Source: a virus. From it: a stretch of 23,478 nt of DNA. A program made the position numbers and the translations under genes. Where the stretch lies: the IMG/VR virus record IMGVR_UViG_3300020166_000118, positions 1 through 23,478 of that record; one strand, given 5' to 3'. Shown piece after piece: positions 3,458-21,835 of this stretch. The notes under the pieces are model-generated. The model was not told where the DNA came from. It searched no databases and saw nothing but the letters and a program-made list of their open reading frames with translations. Position 1 is the stretch's first letter, and every line of letters starts with the position of its first letter.

Positions 3458-4113
3458 TATAGTTCCTCTACCGCTTTTGCCACATCAGGGAAGTGTTGGC
3501 TTAACACATCCCAACATTGGTCAGCTATTATCATATGCTCTTTCTGAGTTCCGTTAGACATTCTTAGTTTGCAGTAATGTATCCACGATCTAAGAGTGCC
3601 TGACATGTATAGTGTTGTTTCAGTATTACCTTCTGGCAGTACTGCCCTTGCTTGTTCTTTTGCTATTCCGTTTTCGAGCGCCCATTCATACGCATCATTG
3701 GCTGCGTTGATGACTCGTTTTTGGGCCATGTTCCAATTTTCTGCCAATTCCGTGTCTTCGGTTTCGATGCTGTTTTGACGATTCTTCTCGTCTTGTAGTC
3801 TACATTCCCTCGTCTCGAAGTTTGTTGATTTTGCATATCTCTGTGAAAATTCCTGAAAGCTAAAGCTACGATGCCTTATGATTTGCCTAGAGATGTCACG
3901 AGTAGTGGTAATCTCCAGTGTAACGGAAACCATCTCAAATGGGCTCCAATGTTCATGTTTTATTAGATATCCTAGTAGTTTTGATGCGGTGTTGGGACTA
4001 TTTTGATTGCCAGGGTTACTTACCCTAGCTGTGTATGCAATCAGTTCATTGGCCGTATTGCATCCAGTCATAGCAGATGGATGAGTCATTCCCACTAAAG
4101 CTGCTTTACTCAT
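3457..4113 (-). CDS. thyX: Flavin-dependent thymidylate synthase ThyX
   Basis: ThyX makes dTMP from dUMP using FAD, NADPH and methylene-tetrahydrofolate. The signature RHRxxSxxExSxRY is present as RHRSFSFQEFSQRY (R80-Y93, counted from the chosen start). The protein is 218 aa, usual for the family. The frame is open further up, with ATGs at 4128 and 4119, but the ATG at 4113 has GGAG nine bases upstream and makes the TAATG overlap used repeatedly in this genome, so I choose it. The ATG at 4119 is too close to the GGAG. Lying between primase and nrdA, it belongs to the early nucleotide-metabolism block. Using ThyX rather than a T4-type ThyA (Td) fits phages of small-genome aquatic hosts. Confidence 0.95.
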   Translation of the reverse strand: MSKAALVGMTHPSAMTGCNTANELIAYTARVSNPGNQNSPNTASKLLGYLIKHEHWSPFEMVSVTLEITTTRDISRQIIRHRSFSFQEFSQRYAKSTNFETRECRLQDEKNRQNSIETEDTELAENWNMAQKRVINAANDAYEWALENGIAKEQARAVLPEGNTETTLYMSGTLRSWIHYCKLRMSNGTQKEHMIIADQCWDVLSQHFPDVAKAVEEL

Positions 4114-5135
4114 TAACATTTTCTCCATGCTGTAAATTCAAGTTCTGCTTCAAGTCCTTCATAAGTATTACTATCTATAATATACTTAATGTCTTCTTTT
4201 GTCAACCCAGAAATTATCATATCGTTAATATCTTTCTCTTCAATGTCACTTGGCCATAAGCAAACTTTGTTGCCTGCTTTTATCTGTTTCTGTATGAGAG
4301 CGCAGATTTCTTTGTTTCTAGGCTGATTATCGAATATTACTGTAAAATATGTAAGTCCAATTGAATCAATTTTATGAAACGATGATCCCGCTGCTGCGAT
4401 TGAGTTATCGAGAAACAGACTATCAATGGGGCCTTCTACAATATAAACTTCCTTAGTCTTATCTATAACATCTAGACCAAAGATTGTAGGTACATCTTCC
4501 TTTATTTTAAGATTGATATATCTAAGATTTTCGCCTCGAATACCTCTCAATGCCATACCAGAAATTTGTCCACTCTCTTCAATGAACGGCAGAGAAATTC
4601 TGGGCTGTTTTATATTTAGTGCTTTTGAGTATTTAGAATTTAGCTGAGACAGATTACGAATATCATCAACATAATACAGTCGATGAAACTGGCTTTCGGG
4701 TATCATTCGTTTTTTGACATACTGAACTGCCTCATGATCAGACGGCAGAGTGTCCATTCTGTCCATAAGTCCGTCAATGATACTAAGTGGCTTGTCAAAT
4801 TGAGGCTTGAAGTCAAACGCAAAATCTATGTTTTCTTTTTTCTTGACTACTGGTTCGTCTTTCTTGACAAACTTTTCTAGTACATATTCTTTATATAATA
4901 GGGGATCAAGTGTCTCTAAGAATTTGCCAATAGTTGTGCCATAATCACAATTGTGGCAGCGATAAAACATGTTAGCTTCTTTCTTATAGAAGTAGCCACG
5001 AGCTTTATTTTGTTTGCCCGAAGAGTCTCCACAGATAATACACCGACAATTGAATAGGTAATCGTCTTTGCGTTTGAACAAAGGAAGCCGATTAGATATC
5101 ATGTTGATGTATTTGAGATCAATATAAAGAGACAT
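4113..5135 (-). CDS. DNA primase, T4 gp61-like
   Basis: This 340-aa primase makes RNA primers for lagging-strand synthesis with the gp41-like helicase encoded at 20444-21835. The N-terminal zinc-binding part has C32-x2-C35 and C60-x2-C63 (CRCIICG and YRCHNC). The TOPRIM catalytic domain is visible as YIVEGPID (E234, D238), IFDNQ (D269) and KDINDMI (301-307). The order and size match phage primases of the gp61 group. The ATG abuts a run of eight T residues that ends a hairpin. The only SD-like bases are AGG, eight bases upstream, within the hairpin's 3' arm. A consensus sigma70 promoter lies just upstream, so this is an early transcription unit with thyX and the nrd genes. The stop overlaps thyX as TAATG. 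Confidence 0.92.
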   Translation of the reverse strand: MSLYIDLKYINMISNRLPLFKRKDDYLFNCRCIICGDSSGKQNKARGYFYKKEANMFYRCHNCDYGTTIGKFLETLDPLLYKEYVLEKFVKKDEPVVKKKENIDFAFDFKPQFDKPLSIIDGLMDRMDTLPSDHEAVQYVKKRMIPESQFHRLYYVDDIRNLSQLNSKYSKALNIKQPRISLPFIEESGQISGMALRGIRGENLRYINLKIKEDVPTIFGLDVIDKTKEVYIVEGPIDSLFLDNSIAAAGSSFHKIDSIGLTYFTVIFDNQPRNKEICALIQKQIKAGNKVCLWPSDIEEKDINDMIISGLTKEDIKYIIDSNTYEGLEAELEFTAWRKC

Positions 5136-5197: not shown

Positions 5198-5674
5198 CTA
5201 TTGCAATAGAAATGACCCGAGATTCACGCCGTTTCCTAGAATGACTCCACCGGCAATTACTATACCGAGTAGAATCCAGCGCCATCTTTCTAGTGCTGTG
5301 AGTCTGTCTTCTAATTTTGACTGCTTGTCGCCGAGGTGCAATTTTAGGTCTTTGATGGCCTCTAATACTTTATCGATTTCGTTTGACATTTTCTGTTCTA
5401 TCTCTCTCGTATTCGTAGTGAGTCTGGAATGGAGGTCTTTAACTTCATCGTCAAACTTATCTTCTGCCTGTTCCATTTCCTTTTTCAGCTCATCAAAATG
5501 AATTTCGCCGTCTTTCAGGCGTTGTTCATGTACTGCTAGTATCTGCCCGATGTTGTTTGATACATCAGTTATTTTGTCTAGAGCGGTTTCTAATTTTGAA
5601 AACAGTTGACCTATCTGATTCACATCATTTTTAACTAATGCCACTTCTGTTTCTAGAGTTTTAACTGTCGCCAT
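5198..5674 (-). CDS. Coiled-coil, C-terminally membrane-anchored protein (XhlA-like layout)
   Basis: This 158-aa protein has a long, highly charged heptad-like helix over about residues 5-130, then one membrane segment at about 133-149 (WILLGIVIAGGVILG) and a short tail. This layout resembles XhlA-type phage proteins that work with holins, and also other tail-anchored phage coiled coils. No sequence motif decides the role. The start lies 14 bases inside the end of the upstream 176-aa gene. It is the last gene of the late unit and is followed by the terminator-like hairpin at 5136-5165. A membrane or lysis-accessory role is an inference. The alternative is a structural or superinfection-related membrane protein. 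Confidence 0.85.
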   Translation of the reverse strand: MATVKTLETEVALVKNDVNQIGQLFSKLETALDKITDVSNNIGQILAVHEQRLKDGEIHFDELKKEMEQAEDKFDDEVKDLHSRLTTNTREIEQKMSNEIDKVLEAIKDLKLHLGDKQSKLEDRLTALERWRWILLGIVIAGGVILGNGVNLGSFLLQ

Positions 5675-6191
5675 TTTTCTTCTTCTTTTTTCTGCGTATC
5701 ATTGGCATCATTACAGGATCACGACCAGGTTCACCCTTTGGCCCAATTCCTATTCCGTCAATCCCACCGGCACCTGCTGCATTGGCTGCCACTTCTTCAT
5801 CCAAAAAGGATTTGAATGACATGGTGTTATGCTCTAAAAGTTTTGATTCTGCGATTACTTTCTCATCCGTCTCGTAGATAGTGAGTAGAATATCAAGCTC
5901 GGAATCAGTGTAATCTTTTACTTTCTCTTCTCTTAGTATACTAATTGCTGCTGCAAGTGTCAAGAGTCTTTTAGAATTTCTGTCAGGTGATTTTATCAAA
6001 GCAGCTTGTACTTTAAATACAAACCGTTGAAGCATTGAGTATGCGTCTTTTTCTGTGGACGTCTCAGGTTTCTTGATTCGCTTGCCGTTAGCATCAATAA
6101 TACCAAGTTCATACGCCTTAGATTTCTCGACAGGTGTGGTTAACATCTTGAGAATTCTGAGTGTTATATATCCATCTGCCAATCTAGACAT
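5661..6191 (-). CDS. Conserved T4-like phage protein of unknown function with internal FLDEE motif
   Basis: This 176-aa protein has an N-terminal helical domain (about 1-120) of a type I associate with T4-like aquatic phages (LADGYITLRILKMLTTP, then KPETSTEKDAY and RFVFK). A short motif, SFKSFLDEE (125-133), follows, then a Gly/Ala linker, a collagen-like GPKGEPGRD (150-158) and a basic tail (RRKKKKK). SFKSFLDEE resembles the N-termini of the proteins at 10968 and 8804, and could be a prohead-protease or capsid-targeting site (inference). The start overlaps the upstream stop as TAATG, with AGGG upstream. A virion-associated role is plausible from its position after structural genes. Function is unknown. 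Confidence 0.88.
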   Translation of the reverse strand: MSRLADGYITLRILKMLTTPVEKSKAYELGIIDANGKRIKKPETSTEKDAYSMLQRFVFKVQAALIKSPDRNSKRLLTLAAAISILREEKVKDYTDSELDILLTIYETDEKVIAESKLLEHNTMSFKSFLDEEVAANAAGAGGIDGIGIGPKGEPGRDPVMMPMIRRKKKKKNGDS

Positions 6192-6568
6192 TAAAGAGCC
6201 CTTAGTACTTTTATCAACTCGTCATTGAGAGGTATATCTGTTTCTTTTATGCCAGGTGAAACTACAGTTTCTAATGGCATTCTGTGTAAATACACTAAAT
6301 ATGTTTTTAATTCTGGCCAAAGTTGTTTTTCCAGTTTATAAAACAACATATCAGTCGTAGCTTCACCAAATACATTGTATAGAATTACCAGATGATTCAA
6401 CACAAGTCTTTCACTACTTTCGCCTGTGCTTTTATATCGATTCAAAAGACGCTTGACGTATTTAAATTTTTTCAAATCGTCTTCTAAATCTTTCATTCCC
6501 ATTGAACCGGGAGTGTAATAATTTTTCACAGCATACACCAAAAAATTATCTTCATTCAATTCTACCAT
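6191..6568 (-). CDS. Conserved small helical phage protein, function unknown
   Basis: This 125-aa protein is mostly predicted helix, with a basic segment (KKFKYVKRLLNRYK, about 33-46), then NHLVILYNVFG and a Trp-containing part (LWPELKTYLVYL). I recall similar small proteins next to structural genes in marine T4-like phages but cannot give a function. It lies in the late block after the two beta-rich structural proteins, nine bases downstream of the 146-aa gene. Its stop overlaps the next ATG as TAATG. No enzyme motif or membrane segment is seen. Confidence 0.87.
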   Translation of the reverse strand: MVELNEDNFLVYAVKNYYTPGSMGMKDLEDDLKKFKYVKRLLNRYKSTGESSERLVLNHLVILYNVFGEATTDMLFYKLEKQLWPELKTYLVYLHRMPLETVVSPGIKETDIPLNDELIKVLRAL

Positions 6569-6577
6569 TATTTAATC

Positions 6578-7018
6578 CTATCCTACTGTAGCGGTACCTC
6601 CAATGAAATACCATTTGCTATTAGTATATAGCAGGGTTGCAGTCTCGCCGACCGCATCAAAAGATATGTCGTTAGCGATAGTAGAATCTTGTAGTGTTAC
6701 TGTGTGACCACCTGTATTGGCTGTCATGATAACAATTTTAATCTGACCATCAACACCCGCAGCCAAAGTACAGTTACCGCTAGTTGAAAAATTCGACAGA
6801 TATGTAATGTTAGTTGTTAATATTATTGCGCCCGGTGCAGTTTGCGTATTAGTATCAGTAATAGCAATCGTATCGCTGAAACTAACAGGCGTGGCAACAT
6901 TAGCAAACAAAGTAGCGACAGTCGTTTTCTTACTGTCACTACCTCTTACTGTATATAGTATATCAGTTGCAGCGGCCGTAGTGACCGCTGTGAGTTCTGA
7001 TAGTTTCGCATCTGCCAT
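6578..7018 (-). CDS. Small beta-rich virion structural protein
   Basis: This 146-aa protein is rich in Thr, Ala, Val, Ile and Gly. Its N-terminus (ADAKLSELTAV, ATDILYTVRGSDSKKTT) is typical of marine phage tail or decoration proteins. The body alternates short beta strands (AIILTTNITYL, QIKIVIMTANTGGHTVTLQ, ATLLYTNSKWYFIGG), as in fibre or decoration domains. The start is supported by GGGAG eight bases upstream of the ATG. A late-promoter-like TAATAAATA (7051-7043) overlaps the upstream stop but deviates from TATAAATA. The assignment as structural comes from composition and context. The exact place in the virion is unknown. Confidence 0.87.
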   Translation of the reverse strand: MADAKLSELTAVTTAAATDILYTVRGSDSKKTTVATLFANVATPVSFSDTIAITDTNTQTAPGAIILTTNITYLSNFSTSGNCTLAAGVDGQIKIVIMTANTGGHTVTLQDSTIANDISFDAVGETATLLYTNSKWYFIGGTATVG

Positions 7019-7049
7019 ATTAAATACTCCCTAAAATAAAAAGTATTTA

Positions 7050-7451
7050 TTAAGCGTCTGGGAATTCAGTATCATCATCGTCTGCTGTAGCGACAACTGT
7101 ACCAGTACCTGCACCAACGCCTGTAGCGGTGAATACTGTGCCTGGATTTGAATCTGCTGCACCAACTAATGTGAAGTCTGTGTCACCTGTAGTAAGAATC
7201 TTATACTCTGTGCCGATAACAAGTGCGCCACCAGCTAAACCAACTGCTGCTTCATATACAGCATCAGTAGCTGCTGCGCCCATTGCTACGAGAGTTTCGT
7301 ATTTCTTTCTAGCACCAACAACAGTACGGCGAACCCAACCTGGTTGAGTAATGCCCGGAGTTGCTGCTACTTCTGCTTCGTCTACCATAAAGATTTCTGA
7401 GGCGGGTACACCAGTAATTACTGGCTTAACTGATTTTGACCATGCGGACAT
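7050..7451 (-). CDS. Small virion structural protein, tail/fibre-repeat type
   Basis: This 133-aa protein has an N-terminal part (1-60, basic around RRTVVGARKKYE), then a segment with the repeat-like unit GTEYKILTTGDTDFTLVG and FTATGVGAGTGTV, which recurs in fibre and tail proteins of aquatic phages. It ends in an acidic tail (ADDDDTEFPDA). The start shares one base with the upstream stop (TAATG) and has GGAG seven bases upstream. It is read with its neighbours as part of the late structural block. A role as a small tail, fibre or decoration protein is an inference from composition. Confidence 0.87.
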   Translation of the reverse strand: MSAWSKSVKPVITGVPASEIFMVDEAEVAATPGITQPGWVRRTVVGARKKYETLVAMGAAATDAVYEAAVGLAGGALVIGTEYKILTTGDTDFTLVGAADSNPGTVFTATGVGAGTGTVVATADDDDTEFPDA

Positions 7452-8770
7452 TAGAGTTCTCCTGTCGTTTTGTATTGTTCTATGATTGTATTGAGTTCTT
7501 TGTAGGCTTCAATTTTTTCTTTAGTTGAGCCTTCTTTAATTACTTTTCTAATAGCTGCGACTTGCTCTTTTACATCTTTCTTTGTAGGAGCCATGCCCTT
7601 TTGAGCACCTTTCTGCTTCATGTCTGCTTTAGCTCGCTTCTCAGCGTCTTTAGCAGCTTGTCCGCTTTGAACTCTGTCAGCAGCTCGTCTAATCATAGCG
7701 AGTCTGTCAGGAGTAGCCGCTGGGTTGCCGTATTCGTCAAGTCTTTCAGTCTCTTCTTCTACTTCTACTTCTTCTTTCTTCATCAAAGCCGCTCTGGCTG
7801 CTGAATTGCTCATGTTGCCTTTAGCAGCGTCTGGGCCAAAGCCTTTGAGTTTAACAACTTTACGACTACCATCTTTGTTGTATTTACCGTCAGCCATATC
7901 AGCACGGGCTTTCTCTCTGCGCTTCTCGTTATCTTCAAAACTTTCTTTCTTCATATCTTGTCTTGCTTGTGCTTTTTTGTCGAGTGAATCTAATGCGTTT
8001 GCTCTAGCTTGTTTGCTATCCCAAGACGGTTTAGTAGCTTTCTTGATAGCTTTGTCACGAGAACCCATGTACTCTGCTGTAGAAGTCTCAACCTTGCCGT
8101 CACCATCATGATCTTTCTTAGCCATCTTAGCTTCTTCAAGTGCTGCGTCTACTAGCTTAAAAAATTCTGCTTTACTTTCTTCTGGAAGATCACGAATGTT
8201 ATCAATACCGTAGTACTCTAGGCCAGCCTCGAACTGTTCTTTGTACATAGAGTTGAGATCGATAACTTCTTCATCGAGGCCAGCTTTCTCTTTTTCTTTA
8301 CGAATTTCTTTTGGAAGCATTCTGAACTTAGAGCGGCTCTTGACAGAAAGTCTGCGAGCTTTATTTTCTGCCCCTTTTCGCAGTCTTTCTTCTTCTTCAG
8401 GATCCATTGCTTCTTTCATGTCCTTCTCTTTCTCTTTCTTCATAGCTTTTGTTTTCTTCCCTTGTTCTTCTGGGCCGTCTACTATTTCAACGCCATCAAC
8501 CATTTTTTCATCTAAGTCCACGGTAGTTTCCTCCGTTTGATATCTAGTTTTTTGTGTATGTAATTTGGCACGATTGAATGCAGTGTCATCTTTCAACATA
8601 ATGTCAGTCATGTTGAACATATACTTTGATAACACATCTCTTTCAGTAGGCGTGAGTTGCTTGCCCATGTGAAGGCTGCTCATGGCAGTCATGAGAATAG
8701 GAAGTTTGCGACTTGGTACAATACCTTGACGCACTAGTTGCTCTAATCGTTGTTTGTTTTTGTTGTCCAT
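7451..8770 (-). CDS. Large, highly charged late protein, probably virion-internal or scaffold-like, with a Ca-loop-like motif
   Basis: This 439-aa protein has a conserved-looking N-terminus (about 5-70: RKLPILMTAM, LTPTERDVLSKYMFNMTDIM), then very charged, low-complexity helical sequence. An EF-hand-like loop, DHDGDGKVETST (220-231), has an unusual Thr in the last position. The body resembles internal-head or scaffold-type proteins of marine T4-like phages, but no precise homologue is recognised. The ATG has no SD. A TATAAATA late promoter ends five bases before it, so the mRNA may be leaderless. Its stop overlaps the 133-aa gene as TAATG. A structural role is an inference. Confidence 0.9.
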   Translation of the reverse strand: MDNKNKQRLEQLVRQGIVPSRKLPILMTAMSSLHMGKQLTPTERDVLSKYMFNMTDIMLKDDTAFNRAKLHTQKTRYQTEETTVDLDEKMVDGVEIVDGPEEQGKKTKAMKKEKEKDMKEAMDPEEEERLRKGAENKARRLSVKSRSKFRMLPKEIRKEKEKAGLDEEVIDLNSMYKEQFEAGLEYYGIDNIRDLPEESKAEFFKLVDAALEEAKMAKKDHDGDGKVETSTAEYMGSRDKAIKKATKPSWDSKQARANALDSLDKKAQARQDMKKESFEDNEKRREKARADMADGKYNKDGSRKVVKLKGFGPDAAKGNMSNSAARAALMKKEEVEVEEETERLDEYGNPAATPDRLAMIRRAADRVQSGQAAKDAEKRAKADMKQKGAQKGMAPTKKDVKEQVAAIRKVIKEGSTKEKIEAYKELNTIIEQYKTTGEL

Positions 8771-8794
8771 ACAAGTATTTATAACAAAACAAAC
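8752..8794 (-). promoter_or_regulatory. Stem-loop spanning late promoter and start of the 439-aa gene
   Basis: On the minus strand GTTTGTTTTGTT (8794-8783) can pair with AACAAAAACAAAC (8764-8752): 12 pairs with one bulged A. The loop holds the late promoter sequence and the ATG. Only read-through RNA would contain both arms. Confidence 0.45.
8776..8783 (-). promoter_or_regulatory. T4-type late promoter TATAAATA
   Basis: An exact TATAAATA on the minus strand ends five bases before the ATG of the 439-aa gene. By T4 spacing the transcript would start at or next to the A of ATG. Confidence 0.75.
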
Positions 8795-8803
8795 TTCAAG
8801 AAA

Positions 8804-10258
8804 CTACTTTCTTTTGATTTTAAATTTCTTAGCTGTTTGCTTCTTCGCCATTGGCTTTGCTGCTTTATACTTCTTAGCTTTCTGGCCGCCGCCTTTTCTG
8901 GACTTCATACGATTGATTTCCATCTTACGCATTCCAGGAAGCATTCTAACAGCAAGTCTTGAAACTAACGGTGCATACATGCCTATGAGTTTTTCTAGGC
9001 GACCTTTCTCTGCTGGTGGGAGTTGTGATTTGTCTCTGCCTTTCAGAAGGCGCTTGTAGACTGCGCCTCTAGCACCACGAGTTGCTCTTTTCTTCAGACG
9101 ATCAGGTGATGATCCTCGTCTAAGTGCAATGCCACGAGCCACTTTGAGTTTCTGTCTGTTCTTTCTAGCAGAAAACTTACGCTTGAGTCTACCTTGAACG
9201 GACAGAACCTCAGTGATATTTACTTCTGGCTCATCGTCTTCATCATCATCATCAAAAGCACCATATTCTAGTGCCATATCGTATGTAATGTTGTCGGCTT
9301 CGTGTTCTAGTTCTGCAATGTCTTGCTTTGTGAGTGCGTAATCACCAAGTACAGGTGCATCTTCTTCGTTGTCTTTTCTATATTCTGCTTTAGTTTCGTG
9401 TGCAGGACCAGACTCTTTTACATATTTGTCTTGCACATTCAAACGCTTTAGAGTCGATTGTTCTAATGTCTTGATGGGATCTTCTTTTGGATTCTTCTGA
9501 CCAGGCGTGTTGTCTTTCATATATTCTGTGCCAGCAGGAGTTCCCCAATCCATAGCACCCATATCTGAGTTATACTTGATCGATTCGCCCATTGCTCGTT
9601 CGCCGCTTCTACGCTTAGATTTTAGATAAGCAGCGACTGCCATTGCTCTACGCTTGGATCTATCTGCACCCTTAAACTGGGGTGCGTCAGACTTCTTGAA
9701 ATCGTCTACATATGTGCCGATGCTGTCTTTGTCAGCGTTGAGCTTTTCGTCAATAGTATTTGAAACTTTCTTTCTGACTTCGGGTGACAGTTCTTTGTAG
9801 TGATATAGGTCTTGGCTATCAGCGGTGTGCTTTTCGCCTGTCATTACTTGTCCGTTGTGAGCGTGTTGAGGACCTTTCCACTCTTTACCGTCTTTAGTGT
9901 AGTGACCTTCAGACTTCCAAGAATGTTCTTTGCCTTCTTTGTTCATTGCAAACATAGAACCAGTAGGACCACTCATAGGCTGAACACTGGCTACATCTTC
10001 CATAGGCACACAGTTATCGACAGTCTTGCCGCCCTTCTTCTTGGTACCCATGCGCTTGTAGCCTTTCCAGCATGCTTTGCCGTCAACGCCTTTTTCTTTC
10101 TCTTCGTTTTGAGAGTCTCTGAAGTCTTGTGCAGAAGGTGCGCCCTTAGAACCAGGCTTACGCATACGCTCCTTTGAGCCACCTTTAATGCGCTTTCTCT
10201 TTGCGTGGATATTATCCCAAAGTCCACCTTCTTCTAACTTATCTTTAAAGCTCTTCAT
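8804..10258 (-). CDS. Large basic mosaic protein with capsid-targeting-like N-terminus, probably packaged
   Basis: This 484-aa protein is built from modules of types I recall from marine T4-like phages. It begins MKSFKDKLEEGG (capsid-targeting-like), then GLWDNIHAKRKRIKGGS (12-28), a Cys-containing unit (GKACWKGYKRMGTKKKGGK to NCVP, C63 and C83), a central His/Gly/Lys part, DRSKRRAMAVAAYLKSKRR (199-217), an acidic patch (FDDDDEDDEPE, 335-345) and a very basic C-terminal domain (VQGRLKRKFSARKNRQK, ending KKFKIKRK). The basic ends and acidic patch suggest DNA or scaffold contact inside the head (inference). The start overlaps the o-spanin 3' end by 14 bases, with a GAAGAGA stretch close upstream. 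A weak A/T hairpin (8798-8813) spans its stop codon. Confidence 0.9.
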   Translation of the reverse strand: MKSFKDKLEEGGLWDNIHAKRKRIKGGSKERMRKPGSKGAPSAQDFRDSQNEEKEKGVDGKACWKGYKRMGTKKKGGKTVDNCVPMEDVASVQPMSGPTGSMFAMNKEGKEHSWKSEGHYTKDGKEWKGPQHAHNGQVMTGEKHTADSQDLYHYKELSPEVRKKVSNTIDEKLNADKDSIGTYVDDFKKSDAPQFKGADRSKRRAMAVAAYLKSKRRSGERAMGESIKYNSDMGAMDWGTPAGTEYMKDNTPGQKNPKEDPIKTLEQSTLKRLNVQDKYVKESGPAHETKAEYRKDNEEDAPVLGDYALTKQDIAELEHEADNITYDMALEYGAFDDDDEDDEPEVNITEVLSVQGRLKRKFSARKNRQKLKVARGIALRRGSSPDRLKKRATRGARGAVYKRLLKGRDKSQLPPAEKGRLEKLIGMYAPLVSRLAVRMLPGMRKMEINRMKSRKGGGQKAKKYKAAKPMAKKQTAKKFKIKRK

Positions 10259-10655
10259 CAGTCTCTTCTACCTTTTTAGGGTTTGCGTTCTCTTCGTAGT
10301 ACAATATTACTGCGCTTTGTGATTCAATGAATCTTCTTAGTTCGCCCATGTTCAGTGCTATGTTCTCGTAATCAGGCACACTGATAGCAAAGAATACTAA
10401 ACTACCTTCTGCCTTTTCAAATCTTTCTATAAATTCGTCTATATTCTCTTTTGTAACAGCATAAAACTCTATGTCATACAGAGTGACAGGCTTAGGTCTT
10501 GGCTGAATAGGAATCGTCCTTTCAACATACTCTACTTGTGTTACTACTACTTCCTCGGGTTTGAATATGCTACATGCAGTAAAACTACTCAGCAGTAACA
10601 GGAACAGGCTTGCCCGTAAGTATTTCCATTTCGTCAAATAGTTTTGCTGTTGCAT
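10245..10655 (-). CDS. o-spanin-like outer-membrane lipoprotein
   Basis: This 136-aa protein has an N-terminal signal peptide (hydrophobic about 15-24) followed by a lipobox-like SFTAC with C28 as the acylation site. Such a lipoprotein would anchor in the outer membrane and pair with the i-spanin encoded just upstream, whose 3' end it overlaps by 71 bases. Overlapping genes of this kind are characteristic of Rz/Rz1-type spanins. After the lipobox comes a Pro/Val-rich linker (PIQPRPKPV) and a small mixed domain, larger than classic Rz1. The start has GGAAG eight bases upstream. The lipobox has F at -3, a tolerated but not ideal variant. The assignment rests on architecture and gene overlap. 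Confidence 0.78.
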   Translation of the reverse strand: MQQQNYLTKWKYLRASLFLLLLSSFTACSIFKPEEVVVTQVEYVERTIPIQPRPKPVTLYDIEFYAVTKENIDEFIERFEKAEGSLVFFAISVPDYENIALNMGELRRFIESQSAVILYYEENANPKKVEETDEEL

Positions 10656-10968
10656 TATTTACTCTTCCTTCAATGAGTCCTGGCTTCTGTAGTGTCAGTA
10701 CTGTTAAATTGTGTCTTCTTAGTTTTCCTGCTAAATCGTCCGAATATGCTTCAGCTTCATTTAGTTGAGATTGCAATTCTTGATTTGTCTTCTCAAATTG
10801 TGCAGCGTCTTGTTGCAATCTACCTATAGTTTCTCTACTGGTCTCTGCTGCGACTGCAAGTTTTGCATTGTTGCTTCTCAAAGTTCCTATTGTAGCTTGA
10901 GTATCGTTATAATACCAATAACCAATACCACCAAAAGTAAGCAACATAACAAATAGTATCTTAGCCAT
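10585..10968 (-). CDS. i-spanin-like inner-membrane coiled-coil protein
   Basis: This 127-aa protein has one N-terminal membrane segment (about 3-20, ILFVMLLTFGGIGYWYY) and a periplasmic coiled coil (about 25-90: TLRSNNAKLAVAAE, RLQQDAAQFEKTNQELQSQL). It should bridge to the lipoprotein at 10245-10655 to fuse inner and outer membranes in the last step of Gram-negative lysis. The frame is open to 10980, but I use the ATG at 10968 because it shares one base with the upstream stop (TAATG) and has GGTGGA upstream. It belongs to the lysis region together with the endolysin and lipase. Spanins vary strongly in sequence, so the call is by architecture. Confidence 0.78.
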   Translation of the reverse strand: MAKILFVMLLTFGGIGYWYYNDTQATIGTLRSNNAKLAVAAETSRETIGRLQQDAAQFEKTNQELQSQLNEAEAYSDDLAGKLRRHNLTVLTLQKPGLIEGRVNNATAKLFDEMEILTGKPVPVTAE

Positions 10969-11249
10969 TAGCAGTTCCACCTACGCAATGACATTGCTTT
11001 ACGAGTAGGACGACCTTTCTCATCTTTCATGGGACCTTTCATGCCTCCCATTCTAGCACAAAAAGACTTTCTTCTTTTTGCCGCTTTACCTTTTGGATCT
11101 AGCTTGCTTGGAGAAGTAGTTACAGCAGTTTTCACACCGGCAGCTTTTGCTCCCTTGCGAGTCATGCCTGCGCCGTCTTCTGTGGCTCTGTAATGTCCCT
11201 TAGAATCTGCGCCTCTTTTTTCTTCTAGAAACTCTTTAAAACTTTTCAT
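10968..11249 (-). CDS. Small Cys-containing basic protein with capsid-targeting-like N-terminus (SFCAR family)
   Basis: This 93-aa protein begins MKSFKEFLEEKRGA, close to the T4 capsid-targeting sequence style (MKTYQEFIAE). The rest is a compact basic domain of a kind I know from large marine phages: GAGMTRKGAKAAGVK (26-40), then KRRKSFCARMGGMKGPM (58-74) and a C-terminus RKAMSLRRWNC. C64 and C93 may bind metal or form a disulfide, but this is not shown. I believe databases hold it as a DUF (possibly DUF6321), from memory only. Stop and start both use TAATG overlaps. Function is unknown. Packaging with the DNA is an inference. Confidence 0.87.
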   Translation of the reverse strand: MKSFKEFLEEKRGADSKGHYRATEDGAGMTRKGAKAAGVKTAVTTSPSKLDPKGKAAKRRKSFCARMGGMKGPMKDEKGRPTRKAMSLRRWNC

Positions 11250-11917
11250 TATTCAGTGTCCGAAAAAAATCTTGATTGATAATCTGCTAAATTAGCATCA
11301 TATGCTGCTTGGATTTCAGTGTAGTTGGTAACGTAGTCTATTGCTGTTAGGTTGCTCCTCGTGTTAGTGTCATAAACTTCTGCGTCATCGTTGAAAGACT
11401 TGCCCAATTTTGTCTGAACAACATCAAAAGAATCTTCCATGTAAATGACAACAGGTGTGCCTCCCAGTGCAGTTACCTTTTCTACAAATGCAGCTTCTCC
11501 TGCAATATGTTCTTCTATTAAAGCATCAACTTCTGATTGTGAAGCTTCAAAAGCAGAGAATTCTTCTCTTGGAGTTTTTGCTGGATGATTCACACCGCTT
11601 TTCAGTGCAACCAATTTACTGAGTGCTGCATCTACTTTTCTTCTTCTAGAGGAAAGAACAAATGTCCAATCCGAGGAAGAATTAGGCATACACTCGTGAC
11701 TATGACTATGAACTGCAATTGAATTTTCCCAAGTATCCAAAGTACTAGAATTCTGTTCTCTTCTAGTTTCGGTGCCTAGTAAGTCACATGTAGTAGAGCC
11801 TGAATTCACGCTAAAATGAGCATTGGTCATAACTTCATCTGCTATTGCCACACACAGAGGAACAAAAATTCTTTTACTTCCTGTTCTGCCGATTGGTGAA
11901 TAAATGTAATATTTCAT
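11249..11917 (-). CDS. Sulfotransferase-like protein (weak)
   Basis: This 222-aa protein starts with a strand and P-loop-like turn, YYIYSPIGRTGSKRIF (3-18), as in PAPS-dependent sulfotransferases, where this element binds the 5'-phosphosulfate. FVLSSRRRK (86-94) could be the 3'-phosphate site, and VHSHSH (69-74) may be near the active site. The remainder (DALIEEHIAGEAAFVEKV, then PVVIYMEDSF) is consistent with an alpha/beta fold, but the catalytic residues are not certain. AAGGGG lies five bases before the ATG. The upstream stop overlaps as ATGA. Its position inside the lysis region is odd for an enzyme. Function is tentative. Confidence 0.82.
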   Translation of the reverse strand: MKYYIYSPIGRTGSKRIFVPLCVAIADEVMTNAHFSVNSGSTTCDLLGTETRREQNSSTLDTWENSIAVHSHSHECMPNSSSDWTFVLSSRRRKVDAALSKLVALKSGVNHPAKTPREEFSAFEASQSEVDALIEEHIAGEAAFVEKVTALGGTPVVIYMEDSFDVVQTKLGKSFNDDAEVYDTNTRSNLTAIDYVTNYTEIQAAYDANLADYQSRFFSDTE

Positions 11918-12075
11918 TGCTCCCCCTTAAATGAAGTGAACAGTCCGTAAGCAAGTCCTGCCCACGCTACTGTGGTTACTATGCCACCTAGAACTATAAC
12001 ACTACCACAGATAATAATAAGAGCAACTCCATCCAGTGTAGTTCTTTCTTTTAGTCTGTCTTTAAGCCAGTTCAT
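11914..12075 (-). CDS. 53-aa membrane protein, holin candidate
   Basis: This short frame reads M-N-W-L-K-D-R-L-K-E-R-T-T-L-D-G-V-A, followed by hydrophobic sequence (ALIIICGSVIVLGGIVTTVA and WAGLAYGLF, about 18-46) and a short charged tail ending KGEQ. It overlaps both neighbours as ATGA (12072-12075 and 11914-11917), which strongly supports it as a real gene. Size, one long or two short membrane segments, and position between the endolysin/lipase and the spanins make it a holin or pinholin candidate. I recall similar ERTSxDG-type miniproteins in marine T4-like phages. The holin role is inferred, and the protein at 12072-12422 is a competitor. Confidence 0.8.
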   Translation of the reverse strand: MNWLKDRLKERTTLDGVALIIICGSVIVLGGIVTTVAWAGLAYGLFTSFKGEQ

Positions 12076-12422
12076 TTACTTTTCCTTTTTGTAGGAGTTT
12101 TCTTAGGCTTTAGCTTGTCTACCTCTACTTGCAGTGCTTTAATTTCTGACATAATTTCAGTAGTACCACCAGCAACAACAGGAGGATGTGAGAATTCTTC
12201 TAGTCGTTTAATCCTTTCTGCTAATAGTGGATACTGCTGAAGCCATTTCTCTTCTCGTTCTGCTATCTTGATGTCATATTTATCAGCAAGATAACTCATA
12301 AAAACATCTACTTTAACTTGTACCCACACACCAACTTTGGTGTTCTTGAACCAAGCATAAAAACTAGAGCCTATGATAGCCCCTAATATAGATTTAAGCG
12401 TAAGTACAACTATCCAAGGCAT
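12072..12422 (-). CDS. Membrane-anchored coiled-coil protein in the lysis region
   Basis: This 116-aa protein has a hydrophobic N-terminus (about 1-24: PWIVVLTLKSILGAIIGSSFYAWF), a helical middle (FMSYLADKYDIKIAEREEKW), a Pro/Gly break (HPPVVAGG) and a second short helix before a very basic tail (KPKKTPTKRKSK). It starts at a TAATG overlap with the lipase stop and ends at an ATGA overlap with the 53-aa membrane protein. The conserved coupling with lipase and holin candidate suggests a lysis or lysis-control role (inference). It could alternatively be a membrane-remodelling or superinfection protein. Confidence 0.83.
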   Translation of the reverse strand: MPWIVVLTLKSILGAIIGSSFYAWFKNTKVGVWVQVKVDVFMSYLADKYDIKIAEREEKWLQQYPLLAERIKRLEEFSHPPVVAGGTTEIMSEIKALQVEVDKLKPKKTPTKRKSK

Positions 12423-13138
12423 TAGTCATTGTCCTCTAGATATCTACAATACTCATCCATTCTGTGGTCACGAACACCGTCAAATACTGTGCCGTTCTTC
12501 CAAGCTGCTCTACGACCACGCCAACCGTCTTTGAATCTCTGCCACCAAGTCATCTTACGGACATTACCGTAGAAGTTGATGTAGCGAAGTTCACCGTGAT
12601 GCTTGTACCAAAGTAAGGCAGGAGGCATAGAAGGAACGATATCATTGTTGTTTACGCAGCGATAGTGTGGCACTTTAAGTTCTTTACACTTAGAAGGCGT
12701 AGCGTTTCGTGGACAACCGTATGTATAGAGTGCTTCTGCTGTTGGGTAATGAAAACAGAAGATAGAAGCAATCGCTGCTCCTAAACTATGACCTGTTACA
12801 AACACTGGACGCTTCTTGCGTCCCATGAGTTTCGCTACTTCACCATGCACTTTGAGTTCTAGCTTTTCGTACTCTTCATAAAAACCTTCGTGAAAGCCTC
12901 GTTCGTGAGTTGCTTCCAAGTCAGCAAAGATATCGCTCTTTTCTTTTGGCTCAGTGCCGCGGAATGCTACTGTGATTCGTTCTTTGTTACCAACGACATA
13001 CGCTTGTGCGCCTTCGGTGTCAAAAAACTTAACACTAGTAAAGCCAAGTGCTTTCCATTCTTTGCGTACTTCTTTGTCTAGGTCTTTGTATGCTAGTCTT
13101 GCGATGCATGCGTGATGATGAAACTCAGTTGATACCAT
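12422..13138 (-). CDS. Class 3 lipase-like alpha/beta hydrolase
   Basis: This 238-aa hydrolase has the class 3 lipase pattern: oxyanion region VAFRGTEP (57-64), the nucleophile elbow VTGHSLGAA (S118), the acid D166 in NNNDIVPSMPP and H225 in RDHRMDEY, so the triad is intact. No signal peptide is seen, so it would reach the envelope only when the inner membrane opens, like an endolysin. GGAG seven bases upstream supports the start. The gene lies 17 bases after the endolysin gene and overlaps the next membrane gene (TAATG). Phospholipid or lipid hydrolysis during lysis is the obvious reading, with substrate unknown. It could instead act on host storage lipids. Confidence 0.9.
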   Translation of the reverse strand: MVSTEFHHHACIARLAYKDLDKEVRKEWKALGFTSVKFFDTEGAQAYVVGNKERITVAFRGTEPKEKSDIFADLEATHERGFHEGFYEEYEKLELKVHGEVAKLMGRKKRPVFVTGHSLGAAIASIFCFHYPTAEALYTYGCPRNATPSKCKELKVPHYRCVNNNDIVPSMPPALLWYKHHGELRYINFYGNVRKMTWWQRFKDGWRGRRAAWKNGTVFDGVRDHRMDEYCRYLEDND

Positions 13139-13155
13139 TATTATTCTCCGTTTTA

Positions 13156-13617
13156 TTATCTATCTAAACTTGCCAAGTTCTCAAGCCTTACCATTAATCT
13201 TTCAGCACGATTAGATACCTGATTATACCATCGTGAATCTCTACCTTCTTTTGCTGCTTCTGTCCAATCACCTGCTTCTATTGCAGCATTGAACTTCTTG
13301 AATCCACTGAGACGAGGACGTCCCATGTTGAACATCATGTTAACCAGGATCTGCTGGACCTCGTCTGGGAAATTTCTAAATTGCCCTTCTCCGTATAGAG
13401 TGCTACACTCTCCGATGGCAATATCAAGGTCTCTTTCAAAACAGTCCCTGACTCTTTCCTCACTAACTGGAGTTCCAACCGGCCTTCCATATTCCTCGTC
13501 ACTTTCGAGGATAAGATGACCGACTCCGAAGGTAGGATAGCCGAGGTGATCTTCATATATGACATATTCTACCCCTTCGTCTATTTTTAATTGATTAAAT
13601 ACTGCTTCTCTGTTCAT
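13156..13617 (-). CDS. Endolysin, T4 lysozyme-like (GH24)
   Basis: This 153-aa muramidase cuts the peptidoglycan glycan strand at lysis. The T4 gpe active site is recognisable: E14 (KIDEG), D23 (IYEDHLGY) and T29 (PTFGVGH) match E11, D20 and T26 with the same spacing. The C-terminal lobe (FNMGRPRLSGFKKFNAAI, then RAERLMVRLE) matches the family. The length (T4: 164 aa) is normal. No signal peptide is present, so a holin is needed. GGAG nine bases upstream sets the start, 23 bases inside the end of the adenylyltransferase gene. It opens the lysis region with lipase, small membrane proteins and spanins. Confidence 0.95.
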   Translation of the reverse strand: MNREAVFNQLKIDEGVEYVIYEDHLGYPTFGVGHLILESDEEYGRPVGTPVSEERVRDCFERDLDIAIGECSTLYGEGQFRNFPDEVQQILVNMMFNMGRPRLSGFKKFNAAIEAGDWTEAAKEGRDSRWYNQVSNRAERLMVRLENLASLDR

Positions 13618-14221
13618 TTAAAAATGCTCCAAAAGATAATCTAGTCTGGTCTTCTTGTAGTCCCATGCCACTACGAGTAGCTTGAAATAATTTTTTAGCG
13701 TGTTCGTCAGATGCATTAGGATGCAAACCTGACTTGAATGATTTATAATCGTTGTTAGATGCATGCGCCCGCATCTTTGTACCACTAACACCTGTTGTGC
13801 CTTCTGCATCTGGATCTCTGTGACCTGCAGAGACTACTTTGAGATGTTTGAAGTGATACTGACCGTTAGGGCCATTGTATTTATCAGCGAGTTTTTGAAA
13901 CTCTTCTACTCTATCTGAACCCGCAACCATTGTAGCGTGTGTGTATCCATCTTTATGTAGTTTGGCTAAATGAGCCATGAAATGAGGATGTTCTTTTGTT
14001 GATGCTTCCACGTTTGCGTCTGGATGAACATGCTTCACATAGTCAACTTTGTGCTGACCTGATAAAGGATTCTTGTGCTTGTCCTGTGAGTGACTGACAA
14101 TCACCTTGTGGTCAGCACCGTGCGTTTCAGCAGTTTTCATAACGTGGTCAACAACTTTACTGTGACCAGCAGTGGGTGGGTTGAACCTCCCGAAACTGAA
14201 TACCATATGCTTATCAGCCAT
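13595..14221 (-). CDS. NMN adenylyltransferase-like nucleotidyltransferase
   Basis: This 208-aa protein begins with FGRFNPPTAGH (10-20), the nucleotide-binding H/TxGH motif of the cytidylyltransferase/NMNAT fold, and has VSGTKMRA (145-152) in place of ISxTxxR, both needed for adenylyl transfer. VAGSDRVEEF (99-108) fits the middle strand. This is the NMNAT/NadR-like branch, so NAD synthesis or activation of another phosphate substrate is likely, but the second substrate is not decided. The C-terminus carries SFGAFLNEQ (196-204), similar to the capsid-targeting-like peptides elsewhere here. It overlaps the ligase-like gene (TAATG, AGGTG upstream), suggesting a joint pathway. Confidence 0.9.
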   Translation of the reverse strand: MADKHMVFSFGRFNPPTAGHSKVVDHVMKTAETHGADHKVIVSHSQDKHKNPLSGQHKVDYVKHVHPDANVEASTKEHPHFMAHLAKLHKDGYTHATMVAGSDRVEEFQKLADKYNGPNGQYHFKHLKVVSAGHRDPDAEGTTGVSGTKMRAHASNNDYKSFKSGLHPNASDEHAKKLFQATRSGMGLQEDQTRLSFGAFLNEQRSSI

Positions 14222-15402
14222 TAGTCACCTGCCCTCGCAAAGTTTGCGGCACTGAATTCGTGTCTGTGTACAAGTTTAGAAGGTTTGCCGTTGTGATGTA
14301 TTACATAACCTTCAGGGTTTGTAGGTGCGCCTGCTATCTCGTGTCCAATTGTATTGTGTGAATTGAGTGCGTCTGTTAGCACTCCTTTCGCTTTCTGTAA
14401 ATGTTGCTGCATCGCAATAACATTTTCAATGTGTTCTTTATTCTTGTTTACATGGCTCATCGAGTCATCGTGAGTCTTAGTATGTCTTGCTTTTGCTGCG
14501 TCTGACTTGACACCAGCGACTTTCTTTTTCATTGCGGTAGAGTAGTGTTTGGCAAAACCATCATGTGATGGTGTAGAGCCGTCTCTCACAGTAGCGTTCA
14601 TGTAAGTTTTGATTGGGTGATCGCCTCGGGGTTGAAGTGGTTGTATCTTGGACACAGCCTCATGTGCTGCCGAGGGTGTCTTCTTATACGCTTCTACTGC
14701 TGCATCCAAATGTTTTTTGTATTCTGATTGATCTGCCTGCGTGTAGTTTACTTTTGATAGGTCGTGATGTATAGGTAGCTGATGAACATCCGCATGATCT
14801 TGTAGTTCAGGGACATGTCCTTGCTTGACTTTCATATCCTCAAACTTTTTGCCCTCATATGCCGTATGAACAGCTACGCCTATGTGTGAGTTTACCGCTT
14901 TCTGTGCGTGTTCTGAATCAGCAGGATGATGATAAGTGATAGTGTTTGTCTTATATGACACACGATGCCCCTCGTGCTTAACATCGCCAGCATGCATGAT
15001 GTCTGCTTGATAAACACCCTTGCCGTCATGTATTTTGGGCAGATGCGTCAGTGCTGCTGTAAGCTTTGATACTAGACCAGGAGCATGTCCGTGATTCTTT
15101 TCAATGTCTTCTGGTGTGTAGTTTAGCTTAGGATTCTTATTGAATACAGATTTAGAACCGACAAAGAATTTGCCATTCTCTGGGTGTGTACCAAATACAA
15201 CAGAAGGACTACCATCGTATTTCATGGTCACTTTAGTATTGTTGTCAGCGCCCTTTATTTTGTCATGCACACCGTTTAGTGTATGAAACGCATGAGCAAA
15301 CCCCTCCGAACCACCGTGAACAACATGATCTTCCACATGTTCTAGGTGCTTCAGTTTCTCATCAGACGCTTCTTCAGCTAAAAATTTTGTAAATTTCATC
15401 AT
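14221..15402 (-). CDS. Ligase-like covalent nucleotidyltransferase, His-rich, with capsid-targeting-like N-terminus
   Basis: This 393-aa protein shows the motifs of the ligase/capping-enzyme superfamily: motif I KYDG (K61 as the AMP/GMP-accepting lysine), a motif III-like VYQADIMH (130-137), motif IV EGYVI (364-368) and motif V-like KLVHR (376-380). Motifs IV and V lie very far from motif I, with a long His-rich helical insertion between (about 160-350). The N-terminus, MKFTKFLAEEASDE, looks like a T4 capsid-targeting peptide. I believe databases keep this family as a DUF (DUF6267, from memory). The ATG lacks an SD and lies five bases after a TATAAATA late promoter. RNA/DNA end joining or capping is plausible, with substrate unknown. 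Confidence 0.9.
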   Translation of the reverse strand: MMKFTKFLAEEASDEKLKHLEHVEDHVVHGGSEGFAHAFHTLNGVHDKIKGADNNTKVTMKYDGSPSVVFGTHPENGKFFVGSKSVFNKNPKLNYTPEDIEKNHGHAPGLVSKLTAALTHLPKIHDGKGVYQADIMHAGDVKHEGHRVSYKTNTITYHHPADSEHAQKAVNSHIGVAVHTAYEGKKFEDMKVKQGHVPELQDHADVHQLPIHHDLSKVNYTQADQSEYKKHLDAAVEAYKKTPSAAHEAVSKIQPLQPRGDHPIKTYMNATVRDGSTPSHDGFAKHYSTAMKKKVAGVKSDAAKARHTKTHDDSMSHVNKNKEHIENVIAMQQHLQKAKGVLTDALNSHNTIGHEIAGAPTNPEGYVIHHNGKPSKLVHRHEFSAANFARAGD

Positions 15403-16637: not shown

Positions 16638-17102
16638 TCAAGGTACAGTTCTAGTACTTGTTTGTTTAGCATTGTAGATTCGCTCCCTTAGTTCAGTGGT
16701 AGAGAAGTTGTGTTCTCTTTTGTTGTAATGAATTTCAATACCACGAGCCTCGCAAATTTCCTTGCCTGTGAAATTGCAATTACGATATTCTTCACCAAGA
16801 ATACGAATCTGAACATTCATGACCCGAAGCAAATCTTCTAAATCTTTTTCGGTTTGATAGACTACAATCTCATCGACATACTTTACCGCTTCAAGTTGAA
16901 TGTATCTCTCTACCAAAGATTGAATAGGCTTGTTTTTACTTGTAGGCCTGTCGATTGTAGGATCAGTTTGAAGCGCACATATAAGATAGCCGCACTGATT
17001 GTGCGCCTCTTTGAGCATAGTGATATGACCTGCATGTAGTAGATCAAAAGTAGACGCTGTTATACCTCTAGTGTACTCAAAATTATCTCTACTCTGCTGC
17101 AT
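16638..17102 (-). CDS. TagD-like cytidylyltransferase
   Basis: This protein of about 154 aa is the size of glycerol-3-phosphate cytidylyltransferase. It has GITASTFDLLHAGH (13-26), the HxGH nucleotide site, a conserved R-P-T-S-K-N-K-P loop, and FSTTELRERI (133-142), the ISTTxLR motif. It should join CTP to a phospho-sugar or glycerol phosphate, giving a CDP-activated donor. The glycosyltransferase downstream could use related chemistry. A GTG at 17108 is a possible earlier start. The ATG at 17102 fits the upstream GGAG better. It overlaps the YubB-like gene. The substrate cannot be decided from sequence: CDP-glycerol, CDP-ethanolamine-like or ADP-sugar relatives are alternatives. Confidence 0.92.
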   Translation of the reverse strand: MQQSRDNFEYTRGITASTFDLLHAGHITMLKEAHNQCGYLICALQTDPTIDRPTSKNKPIQSLVERYIQLEAVKYVDEIVVYQTEKDLEDLLRVMNVQIRILGEEYRNCNFTGKEICEARGIEIHYNKREHNFSTTELRERIYNAKQTSTRTVP

Positions 17103-17643
17103 TTTCACAAGACTCCAATAGATCGACTTCTATCACATGAACTCGATCATTAACAAAGTCATGCCAACCGTCATCTTCCCATGGATCATACTCATCAGAA
17201 TCTTCTGGCACTTCTTCTCCGTTGGCAGAAAGATATGACATACGAGCTTCGACCAAATCTTCGTAGTACTCTTCGTCTGCTATGATGTAGCCGTCATGAT
17301 ATAAAGCTGAGCCAACAAAGTTGTAACCTTCATCTGTAAATTGACAAGTAATTCGAACCTTCTCGTCAATTTCTAATAAATGGTCACCTAACAACTCAAC
17401 AAAAGGTAATACAGCAGACCATGCTGAGGTAACGCAAGCATAATCATCGGCAGCATCTTCGACAAATGCCCATTTTGCGCCTACTGAATCTATGTCTACC
17501 TTACCATCTTCGTTTCTTGGAAGAAACTCGGCATCAAACAATGACTTGTCATCAGCAATAAGTCCTCCAAAGATTCGCTCAAATTCGGCTTCTGCTTCTG
17601 CACTGCCTTGAACTTGAATGTAGTTATCAACATGATTTGCCAT
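17089..17643 (-). CDS. YubB/Api92-like protein
   Basis: This 184-aa, very acidic protein starts MANHVDNYIQVQG, the typical opening of the Api92-like/YubB ferredoxin-fold group found on phages and plasmids. GAKWAF (55-60) and a following region with conserved aromatic residues also fit. The acidic stretch EVPEDSDEYDPWEDDGWHD (143-161) is striking and could mimic nucleic acid. The function of the family is unknown. AGGAGG just before the ATG is one of the strongest SDs in the window. It follows the HTH gene with a small hairpin in the 57-base gap. Confidence 0.82.
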   Translation of the reverse strand: MANHVDNYIQVQGSAEAEAEFERIFGGLIADDKSLFDAEFLPRNEDGKVDIDSVGAKWAFVEDAADDYACVTSAWSAVLPFVELLGDHLLEIDEKVRITCQFTDEGYNFVGSALYHDGYIIADEEYYEDLVEARMSYLSANGEEVPEDSDEYDPWEDDGWHDFVNDRVHVIEVDLLESCENAAE

Positions 17644-20443: not shown

Positions 20444-21835
20444 TTAAAATTTTATGCTACCATAGTCTTTTTCAACATTCAGATTCTTTCTGTCAAATAC
20501 TGGAGTTTCATCATACTTAGAAGCACCCGAATCAGTCAGTCCTGCTTGTGGGTCTTCTAAGTCAAAGAGTTTCATTCTAGCTCTGTCTACACCAATCATA
20601 AATCGTTTGTTACTTGTAGGATCAGCATAACGATTCTTCAACTGCTTGACCATAATTACGCCTTGCTCTTCTAGCTCTTCAGTATTTATCAACGCTATCA
20701 TAATATCTGCTGTAGCAGGAAGACCAAACGATTCTGAAGTATCTGTCAACTCAACATCGCTGTTACCGTAACCACCTCGGGTAGTCTGTGTAGCTGTAAA
20801 TATGGGTAAGTTGAATTCACCCGCCAACCCTCGTAGCTCTTCTGCAATGCTTTTGATGATTGTGTAAGAATTTGCAGATGAACCAGCTTTGAATCTACTA
20901 CTTGCACAAATATTTAGATAGTCAATAAAAATGATATCAGGAGAGAAGTCTTTCTTCAAAGTCAACTCGTTCAACAAAGACTTAAAGTGTCCTGCATGTG
21001 CAGATGCTGTAGGATATTCTTTGATGATAAGACGACCTTGAATCTTAGAATTAATCTTAGCAATTCTGTCATCAAACATCTGTTTAGACAAATCTTTCAA
21101 CTGTCCAATAGGCAGATTCATTAAATTAGCATCGATTCGTTCAGCGATTCGCTCTTCTGACATTTCTAGTGTGATGTACAGAACATTTCTGCCCTGTGAA
21201 ATATGAGCTGCTGCCATGTGACACATGAACAGAGATTTACCAACACCAGTACCAGCAAGAGCAACATTCAACGTCTTGTTTGACAACCCACCTTCAGTAA
21301 TTTTGTTGAACATTTCTAAATCGAACGGCAACTTCTCTTCTAACCTGTGATAGAACTCGTATCTATCTGAAGCATTGTCAATGTAATCATGACCGACAGT
21401 GTTATCAAAACCGACGGCGAGTGCTTCTGATAGAATGCTAGGCAATGCATCTTTGCCTATGTCTTTGTTTCTACCGTCAATGATTTGAATGCCTTCCATA
21501 ATTGCATTGTACAGTGCTTTATCTTTACAAAACTTTTCAGTCTCATCTAGTAGCCACTGTTGCTTGCTATCACCTTGCTCAATATCGTTTACGATCTCTT
21601 GAATCTCAATATACTGAGTTTCTGATACCGATTTATCATCAGTAGTAGAAATTATAATAGCTTGCTTTGACGGAGGTGCATTGTATTCATTTACATATTG
21701 ATTAATCTTATTAAATATTACTCGTTCTGATGCATTCGAAAAATATTCTGGCTTTAGAAAAGGTATAACCTTTCGAAGATAATCTTCATTGTAACATAGA
21801 CCAGCTAGAATAATTCTTTCAATATTTTGTTGCAC
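20444..21835 (-). CDS. Replicative DNA helicase, T4 gp41-like (DnaB family)
   Basis: This 463-aa hexameric helicase unwinds the fork and works with the gp61-like primase. Walker A is AGTGVGKS (194-201), Walker B DIIFIDYLN (300-308), the H3-like motif PIFTATQ (344-350, Q350) and an arginine-finger-like KNRYADP follow. The N-terminal domain (about 1-150) fits the gp41 N-terminal region. The start codon is GTG, sharing bases with the upstream TAG (TAGTG), the only such variant in the window. It is preceded by uvsX and the zinc-ribbon gene, forming a replication/recombination unit. Length matches T4 gp41 (475 aa). Confidence is high. Confidence 0.95.
   Translation of the reverse strand: MQQNIERIILAGLCYNEDYLRKVIPFLKPEYFSNASERVIFNKINQYVNEYNAPPSKQAIIISTTDDKSVSETQYIEIQEIVNDIEQGDSKQQWLLDETEKFCKDKALYNAIMEGIQIIDGRNKDIGKDALPSILSEALAVGFDNTVGHDYIDNASDRYEFYHRLEEKLPFDLEMFNKITEGGLSNKTLNVALAGTGVGKSLFMCHMAAAHISQGRNVLYITLEMSEERIAERIDANLMNLPIGQLKDLSKQMFDDRIAKINSKIQGRLIIKEYPTASAHAGHFKSLLNELTLKKDFSPDIIFIDYLNICASSRFKAGSSANSYTIIKSIAEELRGLAGEFNLPIFTATQTTRGGYGNSDVELTDTSESFGLPATADIMIALINTEELEEQGVIMVKQLKNRYADPTSNKRFMIGVDRARMKLFDLEDPQAGLTDSGASKYDETPVFDRKNLNVEKDYGSIKF

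Follow-up and report, generated by a model that had tools for sequence, protein, structure and literature searches.

In the fragment IMGVR_UViG_3300020166_000118 of an uncultured marine T4-like virus (IMG/VR; 23.5 kb, the whole of which was analysed and is called the window below), a short peptide with the pattern [SK]F..[FK]L.E recurs in five proteins encoded between 5661 and 15402. It is very probable that this peptide, like its T4 counterpart, directs proteins to the capsid and marks them for maturation, that its carriers are packaged cargo, and that it has been put to a separate use in a protein of the gp61.1 family. The packaging role of the tag is well supported, on the basis of its T4 register, its conservation in relatives and its agreement with the virion proteomes of relatives; beyond this, we infer cleavage at the tag, injection of the cargo into the host and docking in the capsid lattice.

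All five copies, each on the minus strand, were located in the genes in which the initial annotation had placed them. Three are N-terminal, namely MMKFTKFLAEE (15402-15370) in a DUF6267 protein, MKSFKEFLEE (11249-11220) in a protein of 93 residues and MKSFKDKLEE (10258-10229) in one of 484 residues, while SFGAFLNE-Q (13636-13613) is C-terminal in a cytidylyltransferase and SFKSFLDE-E (5819-5796) is internal to a protein of 176 residues. The consensus first given for them holds only in part, as the 484-residue protein has lysine for phenylalanine at position 7 and the cytidylyltransferase reads NEQ, not EE. Among 37 minus-strand open reading frames (ORFs) of the window, the pattern matches five times against a shuffle mean of 0.028 (0.03 expected; maximum 2 in 2000 shuffles) and F..FL.E matches four times against 0.08, with a P value that is optimistic because the pattern was written after the peptides had been seen; the data from homologues and other genomes are independent and free of this fault. 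No copy was found beyond 5661-15402, either in the flanking replication and nucleotide genes or in other frames of the window. Common ancestry of the five proteins beyond the tag was set aside, as their families differ, and so was a tag on every protein of the block, most of which have none.

For the T4 internal protein IPIII, ten N-terminal residues are sufficient for head targeting, and mutagenesis has assigned targeting to residues 4 and 7 and processing by gp21, with cleavage after L/I-x-E, to residues 8 and 10 (PMC9026906). The window tags fit this targeting rule, that of the 484-residue protein imperfectly. The N-terminal copies (n=3) have the T4 register M1, F4, F7, L8 and E10, with K7 in the 484-residue copy, so that the full register (M1, aromatic 4, F/aromatic 7, L/I 8, E10) is present in the 93-residue and DUF6267 proteins only; the cytidylyltransferase and 176-residue copies differ from the T4 signal in not being N-terminal.

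Scans of IMG/VR for relatives gave 148 loci with 1514 distinct ORFs, in which a strict form of the tag occurs 126 times at the N-terminus and 30 times at the C-terminus, against about two each in shuffles. Residue 4 is the exact starting point of 76 of the 100 distinct N-terminal motifs of these relatives, as in T4, and the commonest residue after the tag glutamate is alanine, as at T4 sites. The strict counts contradict the explanation that these are chance amphipathic start peptides, frequent in basic phage proteins, which has in its favour that a broad pattern in the cyanophage S-CREM2 is not far above chance (19 N-terminal matches versus 8.6 in shuffles) and which is given next to no credence. 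When motif frequency across the proteome was compared with chance in complete relatives, the two were not equal, and the proposal of a recurring tag held up.

The individual carriers belong to families in which the tag is conserved. The DUF6267 protein (393 residues; 14221..15402, minus strand; PF19782, E 2.8e-97; tag MMKFTKFLAE at 15373-15402) is a candidate packaged enzyme; 54 of the 57 homologues that have a start of their own carry the tag, and its glutamate is invariant across 22 diverse homologues. Its KYDG motif recalls nucleotide ligases, and a ligase-like role is a possibility; searching PDB sequences with the DUF6267 profile yielded chance matches only. The cytidylyltransferase/NMNAT-like enzyme (208 residues; 13595..14221, minus strand; PF01467, phrog_3041) carries SFGAFLNE at 13613-13636, and in its cluster of 60 members the tag is C-terminal in 30 and N-terminal in 15. 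The C-terminal copy, which the initial annotation had found unusual, is indeed so, but it is probably functional, because it is conserved and has a C-terminal counterpart in S-SCSM1 ORF93, a flagged virion protein ending in TFKEFLEYIE. The start of a lysozyme gene (13156-13617) overlaps the end of the cytidylyltransferase gene, over 13595-13617, past most codons of the C-terminal tag. The basic DUF6321 protein of 93 residues (10968..11249, minus strand; PF19846, E 1.3e-12) has an isoelectric point (pI) of 10.6, and 30 of 39 members of its cluster have an N-terminal tag. No mention of DUF6267 or DUF6321 was found in the open-access literature.

The 484-residue protein (8804..10258, minus strand; pI 9.8) is a basic mosaic with a variant tag, and its homologues start MKSFKDHLEE, MKTFKDHLNE and MKTFKEYHLDE. 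It contains a piece of major capsid protein (SVQPMSGPTGSMFAM; 9944..9988, minus strand) that matches the Gp23 profile with E 8.6e-5, just under the family cut-off. This piece is 15 residues long, near-identical to the conserved major capsid protein stretch VQPMSGPTG..FAM, and occurs in the closest relatives only. Modules of the 484-residue protein recur elsewhere in other combinations, which makes the block a mosaic, and this visible mosaicism, with the tagged genes of the window as neighbours, favours the explanation that neighbouring genes have merely swapped ends, by shared descent or gene-internal recombination, and that the motif has no function. Such an account is very improbable, being already hard to hold with a motif conserved in diverged relatives; the tagged genes of S-CREM2 are far apart (3.8-12.8 kb, 107 kb and 124.6 kb), the tag persists while its flanks change, and the cytidylyltransferase family is tagged at either end.

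Evidence from particles comes from published mass spectrometry of relatives, which was compared with their sequences; seven tagged enzymes are in the published virion lists of cyanophages. In S-CREM2, the 219 proteins contain seven matches to F..F[LIMVF].E, six of them in the first 25 residues (0.17 in shuffles), and five of the six proteins with an N-terminal tag appear on the published list of virion proteins (PMC10665884, Table 3; Fisher P 0.003, a value that is somewhat optimistic because the motif patterns were chosen after the first S-CREM2 matches). The five are a S-adenosylmethionine (SAM) hydrolase, a protein annotated as 'Cas9', an APH/ChoK-like kinase, a cytidylyltransferase and ORF136, and the strict motif is near the start of none of the 24 listed S-CREM2 structural proteins. 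The protein annotated as Cas9 (locus L168, 7704-10313) is tagged at residue 19 and, in part, at its C-terminus (TFRDFLN); it gave no Pfam match. In S-SCSM1, the NMNAT ORF91, which starts MKSFLQFLKEA, is flagged as a virion protein, and the only enzyme detected in S-SZBM1 virions is a cytidylyltransferase starting MRFRQFIIEA. The kinase of S-CRM01 is reported to be a virion protein (PMC10665884); its start, looked up as a prediction, is tagged (MISFDQFLSEK). A cytidylyltransferase has also been reported in S-SM1 virions (PMC3037559), and homologues of this enzyme are present in the virions of four cyanophages in all. The untagged DUF6267 proteins of S-CREM2, S-SCSM1 and S-SZBM1, which are absent from the virion lists, provide a natural control.

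Several observations weigh against this interpretation. The tagged orthologues S-SCSM1 ORF30 and S-SZBM1 191 were undetected in virions, while untagged block proteins were detected (S-CREM2 ORF155 and ORF156; S-SCSM1 ORF89, ORF90 and ORF92), so that the tag is not necessary for presence in the particle. The RegA protein of S-SCSM1 is a further exception, being flagged as a virion protein and untagged, and virion lists may include contaminants, according to the S-CREM2 authors. HTVC008M has no clear tag, the 484-residue copy has no phenylalanine at position 7, which governs targeting in T4, and neither gp21 nor gp23 is encoded on the 23.5-kb fragment. The gp61.1-family protein discussed below contributes one more such point, in that its copy of the capsid N-terminus is weak against the capsid protein of the closest relatives, the virus's own gp23 being off the fragment. 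The small orthologues MKTFKQFMSES (L173, 44215-44535) and MKSFKSFLSES (L178, 27312-27629) have a textbook tag and are absent from the virion lists, and in four relatives (L107, L126, L131 and L145) large proteins have a tag-like start followed by P-loop kinase-like sequence (GGPGSGK), which makes them another possible cargo enzyme.

The search for more peptide copies and for a gp21-like protease that the initial annotation had suggested thus gave no additional copies on the fragment, and the protease is off the fragment and present in relatives. The gp21 family (PF03420) was found in 7 of the 12 relatives searched, and these seven are also the ones with a full gp23. Long relatives encode gp21, among them G007, with a cytidylyltransferase 84% identical to that of the window. 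In the proposed mechanism, aromatic residues 4 and 7 would attach a tagged protein to the internal core during head assembly, and a gp21-type protease would cut after the glutamate of L/I-x-E and release the protein within the head. Such cargo would comprise the cytidylyltransferase/NMNAT-like enzyme, the DUF6267 enzyme and the two basic proteins and would then enter the host with the DNA, and the signal may occupy either end of its carrier. A general docking helix for the scaffold or another head protein, uncut by the protease, is an unlikely alternative that accounts well for the C-terminal copy of the cytidylyltransferase, where cutting removes few residues (QRSSI). In an AlphaFold2 prediction for the DUF6267 protein (mean predicted local distance difference test score 85), residues 1-12, the tag, are disordered with a short helix beside the folded domain, which is compatible with docking and cutting alike. 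Against uncut docking stand the invariant glutamate of the DUF6267 homologues, the L/I-x-E rule, which is kept in all five copies, and the alanine that most often follows, and in T4 one peptide does both targeting and processing (PMC9026906).

The shared packaging tag claimed in the initial annotation therefore stands for register, conservation and the virion lists of relatives, but not for the internal copy of the 176-residue protein (5661..6191, minus strand), which on its sequence reads as a maturation-type junction of a gp61.1-family protein and not as a packaging tag. The protein consists of an N-terminal domain, the junction SFKSFLDE (5796-5819), a copy of the capsid N-terminus (N-fist/N-arm; EVAANAAGAGG...RDPVMMPMIRR; 5691..5795, minus strand) and a basic, lysine-rich tail. 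Its residues 2-171 match phrog_2086 (E 2.3e-16), a family that also includes gp61.1 of RB43, Minot and PC-Liy1, and its N-terminal domain gives z scores of 15-19 against RB43, Minot, PC-Liy1 and CC2. The gene is between those of gp41 and gp61, separated from gp61 by one gene (5198-5674); gp61.1 directly adjoins gp61 in T4, RB43, CC2, Minot, PC-Liy1 and PhiKpNIH-6. A linker between fused cargo modules was ruled out for the internal copy in favour of this junction.

The T4 gp61.1 protein, of 54 residues, begins with the tag MKTFKEFIKE and continues with gp23-like sequence. Of all T4 ORFs, gp23 matches this sequence best, through residues 57-93 (score 82, against 50 for the runner-up; 0/5000 shuffles), and the match covers the cleavage motif and the N-fist, which is residues 66-91 of gp23 (PMC7136217; PMC9958956). 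Directly before the N-fist, T4 gp23 reads AFGSFLTE-A, close to the SFGAFLNE of the window. The window N-fist copy resembles the major capsid protein of S-SCSM1 (z 7.8, 0/400 shuffles), and in Syn9, S-SCSM1, S-CREM2, S-SZBM1, Melnitz and HTVC008M proteins encoded at or close to the gp61.1 position resemble the N-terminus of their own capsid protein; two of these, S-SCSM1 ORF97 and S-CREM2 ORF160, are present in virions. In matched-pair permutations, 2 of 720 reach the matched score for six Kyanoviridae phages, which is suggestive because the matches of HTVC008M, Melnitz and S-SZBM1 are weak alone and the pairs were chosen by eye, and 2 of 100,000 do so for 13 phages. Within Straboviridae alone there was no effect (3088/5040 permutations), and the covariation claim therefore extends only to Kyanoviridae and to the difference between that family and Straboviridae. 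The Minot capsid protein, in which the QPM landmark could not be located, was used whole; this leaves the Kyanoviridae result unaffected. The N-fist copy thus tends to track the capsid protein of its own phage in Kyanoviridae, a suggestive pattern. The resemblance had already been caught by annotation, as some gp61.1 proteins are deposited as 'major capsid protein' or 'head morphogenesis protein' and PHROGs lists Syn9 gp190 as 'major head protein'; no paper explaining it, or giving a role for gp61.1, was found in the open-access literature.

In the 176-residue protein, the motif has the position that the cleavage site has in the major capsid protein, with the N-fist copy and basic tail after it, and cleavage would most likely free this piece to bind where the N-fist normally sits in the capsid lattice. 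It is tentatively proposed, as a possibility rather than an expectation, that gp61.1 of T4 and its marine relatives is a mimic of the capsid N-fist that is freed by the protease, coevolves with its own capsid protein and fills N-fist sites beside pentamers or the portal, which would be empty because capsid-protein neighbours are missing there.

The gene order of the window is UvsX, gp41 helicase (20444-21835; PHROGs), small genes, the block of tagged genes, gp61 primase (4113-5135; PHROGs), thyX-like, nrdA-like and nrdB-like, the last three labels having been assigned by sequence inspection. The block of probable virion-protein genes (5198..15402, minus strand) is between helicase and primase, and the matching block of S-SCSM1 (ORFs 89-97) encodes seven proteins flagged as virion proteins. 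The DUF6267 protein, the cytidylyltransferase and the gene order are common to Kyanoviridae such as Syn9, HTVC008M and Melnitz, and Megablast with the whole window gave a single weak match, in the helicase. PADLOC found no match among the window proteins. Inside the block, adjoining the lysozyme gene, is a class-3 lipase-like protein (12422-13138, minus strand; PF01764, E 6.9e-17), and the S-CREM1 authors likewise describe a lipase-like protein, ORF157; a second cytidylyltransferase-like protein (16638-17108, minus strand; PF01467) is untagged and outside the block.

If the packaging interpretation is correct, the tag is a sequence rule that predicts which proteins of marine phages are carried in the particle, and it would explain the cytidylyltransferases, kinases, SAM hydrolase and annotated Cas9 of cyanophage virions, whose presence the authors of one virion study were unable to tell from contamination. 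DUF6267 is present in about 470 and the cytidylyltransferase in about 530 of the phage records searched, mostly cyanophages, and the question therefore concerns abundant ocean viruses. Similar tags may have been mentioned earlier for cyanophages, outside the open-access literature. The gp61.1 result proposes a head role for a T4 gene for which no assigned function was found in that literature.

The closest known system is that of the T4 internal proteins IPI, IPII and IPIII (Mullaney and Black, 1996; reviewed in PMC9026906), where the tag likewise consists of ten N-terminal residues with aromatic residues at 4 and 7, L/I at 8 and E at 10, as in the start MKTYQEFIAE of IPII and IPIII. A gp21-type protease is present in relatives of the window, and the window cargo has basic proteins beside its enzymes. 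The window cargo differs in being unrelated to the T4 proteins and in including enzymes, one of its tags is C-terminal, and its cleavage is something that we infer. T4 Alt, which is processed by gp21 at both ends, with LTE-619 at the C-terminus (PMC5694885), is likewise a packaged head enzyme and gives a precedent for C-terminal processing, although 63 C-terminal residues are removed from Alt as opposed to about five in the window cytidylyltransferase. The gp61.1 protein of T4 (phrog_1823/phrog_2086) shares with the 176-residue protein its family, the slot between genes 41 and 61, and the order of motif, N-fist copy and basic tail, but it lacks the N-terminal domain, which RB43, CC2, Minot and PC-Liy1 have, and the N-fist copy of the window has diverged. 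The N-terminus of T4 gp23 itself has the F-x-x-F-L-x-E junction followed by N-fist sequence that the gp61.1 proteins copy, and after the N-fist these proteins have a basic tail in place of the capsid-protein fold.

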